From positions 496,001-560,000 of the forward strand of contig NZ_CP012334.1 of NCBI RefSeq assembly GCF_001704295.1: 64,000 nucleotides of DNA. The letters run 5' to 3'. The first letter of the stretch is position 1; each line of letters opens with the position of its first letter. This document shows positions 9,013 to 25,346 of this stretch, one piece after another. The stretch comes from Bordetella sp. H567. Its GTDB lineage: Bacteria; Pseudomonadota; Gammaproteobacteria; Burkholderiales; Burkholderiaceae_B. Both the position numbers and the translations under genes were made by a program. The notes below the pieces were generated by a model that made no database searches, was not told the origin of the DNA, and was given only the letters and a program-made list of their open reading frames with translations.

Positions 9013-9042
9013 GTTGTATCCTTCGCCACGCTGTCACGCATC

Positions 9043-9280
9043 GTGCGGGAGAGAGCGGCCGCCGCAGGCGCGCCGCCGCCGAAGGCGCAATTCGCCCGGA
9101 ATCGCTCAGGCAACCCATACCGCAGCATGCCTTGCCCAGGCCGCGCCGCACCCGGCGCCCGGGCGAACACAGCGCTCTGGAGAGAGCCGGCCATCCGCGC
9201 GATGCGCGATGCGACCGGACGCCGAAGGTGCAAACCCGTCAACGCGGGGCAACTCTCAGGCAAAAGGACAGAGGGGCGGA
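9043..9280 (+). promoter_or_regulatory. Tandem glycine riboswitch upstream of gcvT
   Basis: Two consecutive glycine aptamers are visible. Aptamer 1 (about 9043-9124) has the core GGGAGAGAGCGG, then GCCGAAGGCGCAA, then CGCTCAGGCAACC. Aptamer 2 (about 9172-9279) has CTCTGGAGAGAGCC, then CGCCGAAGGTGCAAACC, then CAACTCTCAGGCAAAAGGAC. This order and spacing is the classic cooperative tandem form that switches on glycine-cleavage genes when glycine is abundant. It sits 78 nt before the gcvT start. I do not see a clear intrinsic terminator after aptamer 2, so control may act on translation or through Rho. Confidence 0.95.
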
Positions 9281-9357
9281 AACACAGCCGGTCACGGGGC
9301 GTTCCGCATCCAGGCCGGTATTCCGCTACCCCTTGCCGTCGCTGTCCGGAGCCTCCC

Positions 9358-22668: not shown

Positions 22669-23379
22669 ATGCCGTCTCCCCAGCAGCCGTCGACCGTGCA
22701 GTCGGCTCCGTCGGCGCAGCCGTCGCCGTTTTTTCCGTCCCTGTCCCGCCGCAAGACTCCCCTGGACGCCATCGTGGGCGAAGCGGACCGGGCCCTGCGC
22801 GTGCTGGCGGGCGCCTCCAGCGCGGGCCGGCCGTATCCGGCTGGCCCGGAGGCCGCCGAGACCTTGGCCCCGGCCGATCGCCGCCACGCCGCCGGGCTCA
22901 TGCGCGTGAACCATGTGGGCGAGATCTGCGCCCAGGCCCTGTATCGCGGCCAGGCGCTGGGGTGCGCGGACGCCGCCGCCCGCAGGATGTTCCAGGAGGC
23001 CGCCGCGGAGGAAGTCGACCATCTGGCCTGGTGCGAGCGGCGCCTTGGGGAGTTGCGCAGCCGTCCCAGCCTATTGAATCCCCTGTGGTATGCCGGGTCG
23101 TTCGGGCTGGGCCTGCTGGCCAGCCGCACCGGCGTGCGGCGGAATCTGGGATTCATGGCGGAAACCGAGCGCCAGGTGGAAGCCCACCTGGACAGCCACC
23201 TGAAGCGCCTGCCGGCACAGGACGACCGTTCCCGCCGGGTGGTGGACCAGATGAAGCAGGACGAGATCAACCACCGTGTCAGCGCCGAGCGCGCCGGCGC
23301 CGCGCCGCTGTCCTGGCCTGTCCGGGGGGCGATGCGGGCGCTGTCGCGAATAATGACGGGGACGGCTTACTGGATCTAG
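22669..23379 (+). CDS. coq7: Demethoxyubiquinone hydroxylase (2-polyprenyl-3-methyl-6-methoxy-benzoquinone monooxygenase)
   Basis: A di-iron carboxylate enzyme of ubiquinone synthesis, 236 residues. Iron ligands are visible in [15 protein letters not shown] (E85), EEVDHLAW (E115, H118) and later [12 protein letters not shown]. It has a proline- and serine-rich N-terminal extension of about 30 residues, as in other beta-proteobacterial Coq7 proteins. It acts at the inner membrane face in the penultimate hydroxylation of ubiquinone. It is divergent from the OsmC-like gene. Confidence 0.94.
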
Positions 23380-23600: not shown

Positions 23601-23665
23601 TGCGATGCACAAATGCAACAGTTGGTGGACCGTTGAATGGCGTGAAAATTTCTTCTTGCATCGCA
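23601..23665. promoter_or_regulatory. Inverted repeat overlapping the small-RNA promoter
   Basis: TGCGATGCA (23601-23609) and TGCATCGCA (23657-23665) are perfect 9-bp reverse complements, 47 bp apart. The right arm overlaps the -35 element of the sigma-70 type promoter (23656-23661). This could be a looping operator or an RNA stem in a transcript from the sigma-54 promoter. Confidence 0.45.
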
Positions 23666-23684
23666 CAAAAAGTTTGGCTATGAT
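23656..23684 (+). promoter_or_regulatory. Predicted sigma-70 promoter of the small RNA
   Basis: TTGCAT (23656-23661), a 17-bp spacer and TATGAT (23679-23684), close to consensus at both elements. The expected start is about 23691. Confidence 0.65.
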
Positions 23685-23690
23685 TTGCCC

Positions 23691-23855
23691 ATCGGATGTC
23701 GAAACGCAGTCGGCGCGGTGCAAAACCCCGGCGGCGATCAGAGTACCTGGGAGGGTACTCCAGGGTTAACCCTCTGCGACATGCCACGGTTGTCTCCTCC
23801 ACCCTCCTCCTTTGGTGGATTTAGCCCGAGATCGTCAGATCTCGGGCTTTTTTTT
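23691..23855 (+). ncRNA. Predicted small RNA (about 165 nt) with anti-Shine-Dalgarno hairpin loop
   Basis: No coding frame is convincing between the promoter at 23656-23684 and the strong terminator at 23823-23855, so a free-standing RNA is the best reading. Its 5' part can close on itself (ATGT and CGCAG near 23697-23710 with CTGCG and ACAT near 23774-23782). It contains a GTACC/GGTAC hairpin and the palindrome AGGGTTAACCCT. Then comes a C-rich segment in which CCACC (23799-23803) pairs with GGTGG (23814-23818), presenting a CUCCUCCUUU loop. Such loops pair with ribosome-binding sites in known riboregulators. I do not recognise the family. A leader for tviB, 214 nt downstream, is a less likely alternative. 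Confidence 0.6.
23823..23855 (+). terminator. Strong intrinsic terminator of the small RNA
   Basis: AGCCCGAGAT (23823-23832) pairs perfectly with ATCTCGGGCT (23839-23848) over a 6-nt loop and is followed by eight T (23848-23855). Confidence 0.9.
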
Positions 23856-24068
23856 ATCCATTTTCGGCCCATGGCGCTTCGTGCGCGTGCACCGCGCGCA
23901 CCGCGCCGCGGGTCCGGCATGTCGGCAGGCCGGGAGGCCGCGGCGGGGTTTCTGCGCCATAGGCCGGCGGGGTTCGCGGTATCGGCCGCAAGGTTTCCCG
24001 TCGCAAGCCGGGAGCGCCACGTCCCCATCCACTAAAATCGCCGGATCGATAGCGGTAGGAAATCCGTC

Positions 24069-25346
24069 ATGTTGCGTATTCAGGATGTGAAGTTGGCCAT
24101 CGTGGGGCTGGGTTATGTCGGCCTGCCGCTTGCCGTCGAATTCGGCAAGAAGCGCGCGGTTGTGGGCTTCGACATCGACTCGCGCCGCATCGACGAACTC
24201 AAGCGCGGCCAGGATCACACCCTGGAGGTCGACCAAGCCGAACTCGGGGCCGCCAGCCACCTGGAATTCACCGCCGACCCGGCGCGCCTGGCCCAGGCCA
24301 ACGTCTACATCGTGACGGTGCCCACGCCCATCGACGCCTATAAACAGCCGGACCTGACGCCGCTGCGCAAGGCCAGCGAAACGATAGGCCGGGTGCTCAA
24401 GCGCGGCGACATCGTCATCTACGAATCCACGGTCTATCCCGGCGCCACGGAGGAAGACTGCGTGCCCGTGCTGGAACGTGTCTCCGGCCTGGTGTTCAAC
24501 CGGGACTTCTACGCGGGATACAGCCCGGAACGCATCAATCCCGGCGACAAGAGCCACCGCGTCAACACCATCAAGAAAGTGACTGCCGGCTCGACGCCGG
24601 AAGTCGCCGACCTGGTGGATGCCCTGTACGGCGAAATCGTGACCGCGGGCACCCACAAGGCCGCCTCCATACGCGTGGCCGAGGCGGCGAAGGTGATCGA
24701 GAATACCCAGCGCGACGTCAACATCGCCCTGATCAACGAGCTGGCGCTGATATTCAACAAAATGGGCATCGATACCGAGGCGGTGTTGCAGGCCGCCGGC
24801 ACGAAGTGGAACTTCCTGCCGTTCCGGCCCGGCCTGGTTGGTGGCCATTGCATCGGCGTCGACCCCTACTACCTGACGCACAAGGCCCAAAGCCTGGGTT
24901 ATCACCCCGAAATCATCCTGGCGGGCCGCCGGCTGAACGATGCCATGGGCGGCTACGTCGTGTCGCAGCTGGTCAAGGCCATGACCAAGCGCCGTATCCA
25001 CGTACAGGGGGCGCGTGTCCTCGTCATGGGGCTGGCCTTCAAGGAAAACTGCCCCGATCTGCGCAATACCCGAGTGGTCGATATCGTGCGGGAACTGCGG
25101 GAATACGGGGTGGACGTCGATGTCCACGATCCTTGGGTCGATCCGGCGGAAGCGCGGGCCGAATATGGCATCGAGCCCGTCTCCACGCCAGCGCCCGGCC
25201 ACTATGACGGCATCGTTCTTGCGGTAGCGCATCGGCAGTTCGCCGAACTGGGCGCGGCACGGATACGCGCCTACGGCAAGCCCGAGCACGTGCTGTACGA
25301 CTTGAAGTATGTCCTCCAGCCCGGTGAATCCGACCTGCGTTTGTAA
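24069..25346 (+). CDS. tviB: UDP-N-acetylglucosamine 6-dehydrogenase (TviB/WbpA-like)
   Basis: A nucleotide-sugar dehydrogenase, 425 residues, the same length as Salmonella TviB and closely similar along its whole length. The NAD-binding [15 protein letters not shown] is at residues 13-27. The catalytic cysteine is C261 in [15 protein letters not shown]. TviB oxidises UDP-GlcNAc at C6 to UDP-GlcNAcA, a precursor of Vi-type and O6-type polysaccharides. The next gene is the matching C4 epimerase, 26 bp downstream. No polymerase or export genes lie nearby in this window. Confidence 0.93.

Follow-up and report, generated by a model that had tools for sequence, protein, structure and literature searches.

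The locus at 23691-23856 of the window (the whole stretch of 64,000 nucleotides that was analysed) is, judging by its sequence, an orthologue of the Bordetella small RNA S17, also known as CT_433; the RNA itself is not new. The new part is the control of S17: the -35 region and the adjoining spacer carry a site of the published PhaR type, i.e. a candidate PhaR operator, and the comparison across genomes suggests that the S17 promoter is held shut by PhaR. This site goes beyond the published S17/CT_433 work, and so does a second element, a leader that would be folded by a covarying helix, P1. Taken as a whole, we read the locus as an S17/CT_433 orthologue with a P1-folded leader, acting as a ribosome-site blocker with RNase E and Hfq and transcribed from a promoter held by PhaR, and we assign this reading a probability of about 0.8. 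The features involved are the following.

22669-23379, plus strand: coq7 (NCBIfam NF033656, 302 bits, cut-off 180), in conserved synteny with S17.
23653-23669, plus strand: predicted PhaR-type operator TTCTTGCATCGCACAAA, differing from the R. eutropha consensus YTKNTGCRNYGCANMAR at one position.
23656-23661, plus strand: -35 hexamer TTGCAT, identical to the -35 of the B. pertussis S17 promoter (PS17).
23679-23684, plus strand: -10 hexamer TATGAT, after a spacer of 17 bp.
23691-23856, plus strand: S17L, predicted primary transcript (analogy with the mapped B. pertussis start; start region conserved in 33 aligned orthologues).
23694-23701, plus strand: 5' strand of helix P1, GGAUGUCG (fold, RNAalifold, covariation).
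23696-23824, plus strand: 42-aa ORF overlapping the leader, judged to be no gene, as frame, length and start codon are not conserved.
23705-23773, plus strand: three inner leader hairpins (23705-23736, 23741-23760, 23762-23773; minimum-energy prediction).
23777-23785, plus strand: 3' strand of helix P1, CGACAUGCC, with a bulge at G23783, close to the RNase E site on its 5' side (fold, RNAalifold, covariation).
23791-23856, plus strand: S17S, predicted stable RNase E product, with its 5' end at 23790 or 23791 (RF02278 match at 23791-23855; published 67-nt B. pertussis form).
23793-23800, plus strand: Site 1, UCUCCUCC, the Shine-Dalgarno-pairing seed, invariant in 33 of 33 aligned orthologues and with a role shown in B. 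pertussis (PMC11722255).
23798-23819, plus strand: SL1, i.e. UCCACC, the loop CUCCUCCUUU (Site 2) and GGUGGA (folding, alignment).
23823-23855, plus strand: intrinsic terminator, a stem of 11 pairs at 23823-23848 followed by a T run (folding, RNAalifold).
24069-25346, plus strand: tviB (NCBIfam NF011729, 679 bits, cut-off 592), in its own frame, downstream and outside the small RNA.

The initial annotation had placed a free-standing small RNA between coq7 and tviB and had not recognised its family. The protein family matches bear out the two neighbours, and the published work on the B. pertussis orthologue supports a free-standing small RNA; its family is an already known one. The Rfam/Infernal search recommended at that stage identifies RF02278 (Betaproteobacteria toxic sRNA) with 69.6 bits (cut-off 50, E 5.7e-12), the model being covered full-length, at positions 1-64 of 64, and this is the sole Rfam match above cut-off at the locus. 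Other RNA families remain below their own thresholds: NmsRb of Neisseria (RF02877), which like S17S has two hairpins and a CU-rich loop, reaches 36.5 bits against a cut-off of 52, and anti-hemB, SorY and SorX each fall short. The members of RF02278, whose model is without a leader, include the Burkholderia double-hairpin RNAs ncS03, ncS05, ncS27 and ncS62, three of which are very short and consist of nearly just the two hairpins, the fourth being processed.

The B. pertussis RNA is reported to lie between coq7 and BP3151, called a glycosyltransferase, and to be transcribed from a sigmaA promoter TTGCAT-17-TACTAT with a start A 7 bp downstream; its primary transcript, S17L, is 190 nt long and is trimmed by RNase E to the stable 67-nt S17S, which in turn gives its name to the predicted product here (PMC11722255). 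S17 represses BP2158 by pairing with the 5'UTR, a target proven by compensatory mutations (PMC11722255). A second group found the same RNA, as CT_433, with Hfq RIL-seq, in which it is one of the two sRNAs holding most of the sRNA-mRNA chimeras; the CT_433 targets carry a Shine-Dalgarno-like motif, and the RNA was Northern-probed in seven Bordetella species (PMC12235514). Both papers report Hfq dependence (PMC11722255, PMC12235514). The window locus and B. pertussis S17/CT_433 have in common the coq7 side, the -35 hexamer, the spacing, the start base, the C/U-rich 3' half and the terminator. They differ in the downstream neighbour, which is tviB in the window as opposed to BP3151, and in the length of S17L, predicted here from the sequence at about 166 nt. 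Because the published promoter shares the TTGCAT hexamer, the 17-bp spacer and an A start 7 bp downstream, TTGCAT-17-TATGAT is very probably the right promoter of the locus, with A23691, 7 bp 3' of the -10, as the predicted start. A near-consensus promoter had been described at this place before; the place is correct, but the wording was generous, as the -35 agrees with the consensus in 3 of 6 positions and the -10 in 5 of 6, and a promoter scan with a threshold of 4/6 per hexamer consequently leaves it unlisted.

The 167-nt RNA folds at -70 kcal/mol with a z-score of -4.0, a value equalled by 0 of 200 shuffles, and the fold of the 67-nt 3' part has a z-score of -6.4. SL1 is a stem of 6 bp (23798-23803 with 23814-23819) closed by a 10-nt loop; its sequence is invariant in the orthologue alignment and so carries no covariation information. 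In the terminator, several pairs are changed on both sides in the RNAalifold alignment. What had been noticed in the 3' third reappears here with small corrections. The hairpin with a CUCCUCC loop is present, with the longer stem UCCACC/GGUGGA in place of CCACC/GGTGG; the further CUCCUCC just 5' of it is Site 1; and the terminator is a stem followed by T's, but with 11 pairs, not 10. The conservation of the hairpin, a point left for checking, is found for both Site 1 and SL1 in all 33 aligned orthologues. The suggestion that such C/U-rich stretches block ribosome sites agrees with what is published for B. pertussis S17, except that the loop had been taken for the active part: by analogy with that RNA, the upstream CUCCUCC, Site 1, is probably the main pairing site, and the RNA probably works as the 67-nt 3' fragment cut out by RNase E rather than at its length of 165 nt.

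Outside the closest species, good conservation is described as confined to the 3' region (PMC12235514), and a predicted S17L fold is drawn in one of the two B. pertussis papers (PMC11722255 or PMC12235514). In our comparison the leader varies in length and sequence, and its inner hairpins are variable among relatives, but its ends stay paired via P1. This helix is found unaided both by RNAalifold and by the single-sequence fold. In the alignment of orthologues (33 loci of our own choosing, L038 and L044 having been dropped from 35 because their 5' ends were misaligned), 99.2% of the P1 cells are paired, 4 of the 8 pairs are changed on both sides, and 0 of 500 shuffles attain any of five measures. 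A second test used the loci with TTGC-N3-GCA within 260 nt (n=114), of which 13 without GGA at the expected place were set aside. At least 7 of the 8 pairs are formed in 93 of the remaining 101 loci, and the true partners beat 500 of 500 sets with swapped partners (37 distinct strand pairs). The variants of the two strands include GGATGTTG/CAACATGCC, GGATATCG/CGATATGCC, GGAAGTCG/CGACTTGCC and GGAAGTTAAG/CTTAACTTGCC. The 3' strand ends 5 nt 5' of the RNase E site. We infer that P1 hides the 5' end, presents a single-stranded cleavage site beside a duplex and may in this way guide RNase E, which gives a testable reason for the position of the cut.

The transcript itself could be read in two other ways. 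B. pertussis S17L has been noted to contain a 32-residue ORF (PMC11722255), and the 42-aa ORF starting at 23696 might likewise point to a small-protein mRNA or a dual-function RNA. However, the frame and the length of this ORF differ among the 33 aligned orthologues and the ATG is missing in two, so that a conserved frame was not found, and helix P1 accounts for the conservation of the start region; we consider a peptide-coding leader hardly credible, in agreement with the earlier view that these roughly 165 nt contain no convincing gene. The Rfam name, on the other hand, speaks for a growth-inhibiting ('toxic') RNA that stops growth by sequestering ribosomes, and overexpression of ncS27 does slow B. 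cenocepacia. Yet S17S overexpressed in E. coli leaves exponential growth unimpaired and impairs growth only modestly at entry into stationary phase, a specific target has been proven with compensatory mutations (all PMC11722255), and the broad, mostly single-copy conservation fits a regulator, which makes toxicity a very unlikely role. Another idea that was discarded is that a GGGAGGG segment of the leader latches onto the CCCUCC loop: the pairing is absent from the minimum-energy fold and the inner leader is not conserved.

We now turn to the promoter of the S17/CT_433 orthologue. The predicted operator, with its core TGCATCGCACAA at 23657-23668, spans the -35 hexamer and the first part of the spacer, and the conserved block CTTGCATCGCACAAA begins 5' of the -35 and extends into the spacer. 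The consensus to which the operator was compared is that of R. eutropha PhaR (PMC12849132). The core is identical to the PhaR site listed for phaP5 of B. diazoefficiens, a gene that is up 129-fold without phaR and whose promoter is shifted by PhaR in gels; the corresponding Bradyrhizobium consensus, TGCRNYGCASMA, was derived by footprinting at phaP1 and phaP4 and by alignment (PMC6201568). A site fitting the R. eutropha consensus without mismatch stands upstream of 21 of 30 phasin genes, and one with at most 2 mismatches upstream of 29 (shuffles 0/300 and 23/300, respectively); in front of S17, a site with at most 2 mismatches is seen in 105 of 118 upstream regions (shuffles 39/590). A perfect TGCRNYGCANMA is present within 260 nt in 78 of 78 named coq7-S17 loci (from the best 80 of 464), as compared to 9 of 780 shuffles; the locus of Castellaniella defragrans DSM 12141 (L291) is one of these 78. 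The window's own genome has 8 sites that match TTGCAWYGCACAA with no more than one mismatch, against 2 in a backwards-read control, and one of the 8 precedes the only Phasin_2 gene found there. Since the box overlaps the -35, its TTGC part would be conserved regardless of PhaR.

The small RNA is present in 234 of the 250 host-family genomes searched, mostly as a single copy (one in the window's own genome), and PhaR (PF07879) is found in 229 of the 250. We took the 80 best named coq7 loci (out of 464): 78 have the S17 core close by, and the remaining two end about 100 nt past coq7. These loci come from Bordetella, Achromobacter, Castellaniella, Pollutimonas and others, and many belong to the same genomes as those that we denote by G numbers. 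No plasmid-borne copy of S17 was found by blastn in the plasmid collection, and genomes of 0.7-1.7 Mb (genera g7 and g63; G027 and G085) gave no match to either PhaR or the sRNA.

The box and PhaR tend to occur together. Within the family 112 of the 234 sRNA-positive genomes were scored, including 7 of the 8 genomes without a PhaR match (G224, where the contig ends, was left out). A perfect TGCNNNGCANMA, the loose form of the core, is present in 103 of the 105 PhaR-positive genomes scored and is absent from 3 of the 7 without a PhaR match (Fisher 0.0015, phylogeny ignored). The three box-less, PhaR-less genomes belong to three genera: G084 (9 contigs, 100% complete), G132 (one contig, 100%) and G144 (a 91% draft). 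All three still have a predicted promoter, with a TTGC-type -35 and a -10 spaced by 17 bp, but have lost the half of the box that lies in the spacer. In G084 the predicted promoter, identified by likeness, lies 273 nt 5' of S17S as opposed to 131-136 nt in its congeners. The PhaR-positive congeners of these genomes keep the box, with the exceptions of G149 (one mismatch) and G180 (one mismatch by the stricter core). Neither G132 nor G144 has a phasin match; G084 retains a phasin, whose promoter boxes have decayed (best site with 2 mismatches, no second box). Against the rule, four drafts without a PhaR match (G209, G216, G217 and G272) keep the S17 box. All four have a phasin with boxes at 0 or 1 mismatch, and because these boxes are near-perfect, PhaR may simply be unassembled in the drafts. 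Further exceptions are G018 and G149, in which PhaR is present and the S17 box is degraded. In G174 the phasin boxes are intact, and PhaR and the sRNA were both not found.

Outside the family, a perfect core is found near at least one copy in 14 of 19 PhaR-positive genomes, i.e. 5 are without it, versus 0 of 8 PhaR-negative ones (Fisher 0.0006, phylogeny ignored). Counted per copy the figures are 18 of 33 and 0 of 12, with more copies scored in the PhaR-positive genomes. Each genome was represented by its best site, whichever the strand, at up to 200 nt from any copy scored, with no shuffle control. The set consists of 24 of the 32 genomes with an RF02278 match, plus G045, G038 and G056. Omitted were G282, G283 and G292 (no PhaR, no perfect core) and, with PhaR present and matches below 40 bits, G048, G391, G055 (without perfect core), G377 and G493; L208 and L219 were not scored, G042 and G039 were inspected but not scored, and some extra copies were omitted. 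On the whole the site is kept with PhaR and lost without it, with the exceptions given above.

Could the conserved box be explained without PhaR? One proposal is that the S17 orthologue has a housekeeping promoter without regulation, in which the conserved spacer is good promoter context and no operator. The -35 does fall inside the box, and purified sigmaA RNA polymerase is reported to transcribe the B. pertussis promoter without an activator (PMC11722255). The GCANMA half of the box, however, sits in the spacer, where sigma-70 has no consensus; it is this half that the PhaR-less genomes have lost, although a -35 and a -10 at the right spacing are still predicted there, and in G084 the motif has decayed at the phasin promoter as well. 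We therefore regard an unregulated promoter as unlikely. It is similarly improbable, in our view, that the box is the operator of some other regulator that tends to be lost along with PhaR. Such a proposal can appeal to the fact that the case for PhaR is made from sequence and co-loss, and to B. pertussis, in which S17 follows the Bvg mode and depends on bvgAS (PMC11722255, PMC12235514), a dependence that PhaR alone does not explain. But the motif has been published as that of PhaR in four species and is present at phasin promoters, and the addition of BvgA~P is reported to leave in vitro transcription from PS17 unchanged (PMC11722255).

Control by PhaR has a precedent. PhaR is a repressor of phasin genes that comes off the DNA once granules of polyhydroxybutyrate (PHB) form, and in Sinorhizobium the sRNA MmgR is repressed by PhaR/AniA, which binds the MmgR promoter. 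The alphaproteobacterial sRNAs compared here are MmgR/alpha-r8 of Sinorhizobium (RF00519) and SisA-D of Caulobacter. MmgR is a 77-nt transcript under NtrC control for which no direct base-pairing had been identified. At the S17 locus RF00519 scores 19.2 bits against a gathering cut-off of 41, so the likeness is one of control and not of family; S17 would be the betaproteobacterial counterpart of MmgR in this respect. The genomic comparison and this analogy together lead us to infer that PhaR represses S17 as PhaR/AniA represses MmgR. For PS17, Sim et al. postulate a repressor that they leave unidentified (PMC11722255), and PhaR would be that repressor.

The Burkholderia RNAs of the same Rfam family were also compared from this point of view. 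An upstream motif is described as common to three of the four ncS RNAs, and according to the authors the regulator of their accumulation is unknown. ncS03, ncS05 and ncS27 rise in biofilm, under starvation and most in glucose medium: in low-peptone glucose medium they are up 8.0-fold, 6.9-fold and 4.3-fold, respectively. PhaR control would fit this rise above the starvation level in a glucose medium poor in peptone. The main texts of PMC11722255 and PMC12235514 mention none of the terms PhaR, phasin, PHB and polyhydroxybutyrate, the Burkholderia ncS sRNA papers mention none of PhaR, phasin, hydroxybutyrate and hydroxyalkanoate, and in the Herbaspirillum sRNA paper PHB occurs only in the title of one reference. 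Among the titles listed, we recognised none linking PhaR with betaproteobacterial sRNAs or with Bordetella, in a search that covered few subscription papers.

Put together, the proposed mechanism would run as follows. The housekeeping-type promoter would give the precursor of about 166 nt, whose leader would fold via P1, the 5' end pairing with the sequence that ends just before the cleavage site; RNase E would then release the piece of about 67 nt, and this piece, with Hfq, would pair through its CUCCUCC segments with the Shine-Dalgarno region of many mRNAs and block their translation. PhaR would hold the promoter and leave the DNA once PHB granules form, and therefore S17 should rise in carbon excess. 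If this is true, a ribosome-site-blocking sRNA of more than 200 searched species is placed under the cell's sensor of its carbon store. More tentatively, we speculate that alpha- and betaproteobacteria share one ancestral circuit, in which PhaR represses an Hfq-dependent sRNA (MmgR/alpha-r8 or S17/RF02278), granules release phasin and sRNA together, the betaproteobacterial sRNA masks the ribosome sites of genes for uptake and catabolism, and PhaR is the PS17 repressor in Bordetella; the circuit in this full form is possible, though we would not call it probable. Its PhaR-S17 half has strong comparative support from the genomes, and a common descent of MmgR/alpha-r8 and S17 is weakly hinted at by the RF00519 score.

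A conserved targeting of phasin mRNA by S17 was considered and is not supported by duplex energies: 21 phasin leaders have a mean of -11.9, versus -10.6 (sd 4.1) for a background of 42 window ORFs picked by length, one of which reached -24.4. Strong pairing of S17S with the phasin ribosome site is seen in the window's own genome (L105, -23.6 kcal/mol) and in another genome of the same genus (G005, L131, -22.6 kcal/mol), and is absent from the other 19 of the 21 leaders.

There are a few further observations on sites and copies. The only other exact TTGCAWYGCACAA of the window's genome, at C1:4151889-4151901 (L097), lies between ORFs that by eye resemble an AraC-type regulator and an aldo/keto reductase and may be another PhaR target. 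Tandem S17 pairs, a few hundred bases apart, occur within one genus (L052, L094 and L169). One genome, G042, has 9 RF02278 copies (L150-L157): the promoter of one S17-like copy, L153, still has the PhaR core, L155 has a near-consensus PhaR-type site further upstream, and the remaining paralogues seem to be controlled otherwise. A palindrome-like element over the -10 and the start, by eye close to ATATTAGAnAATnCTAATA, is common to sRNA promoters of genomes that mostly have no PhaR (L172, L178, L185, L187, L189, L190 and L192-L195); it is perhaps the operator of another regulator. Elsewhere in the window, at 9036-9281 on the plus strand, there are tandem glycine riboswitch aptamers with 52 and 51 bits.
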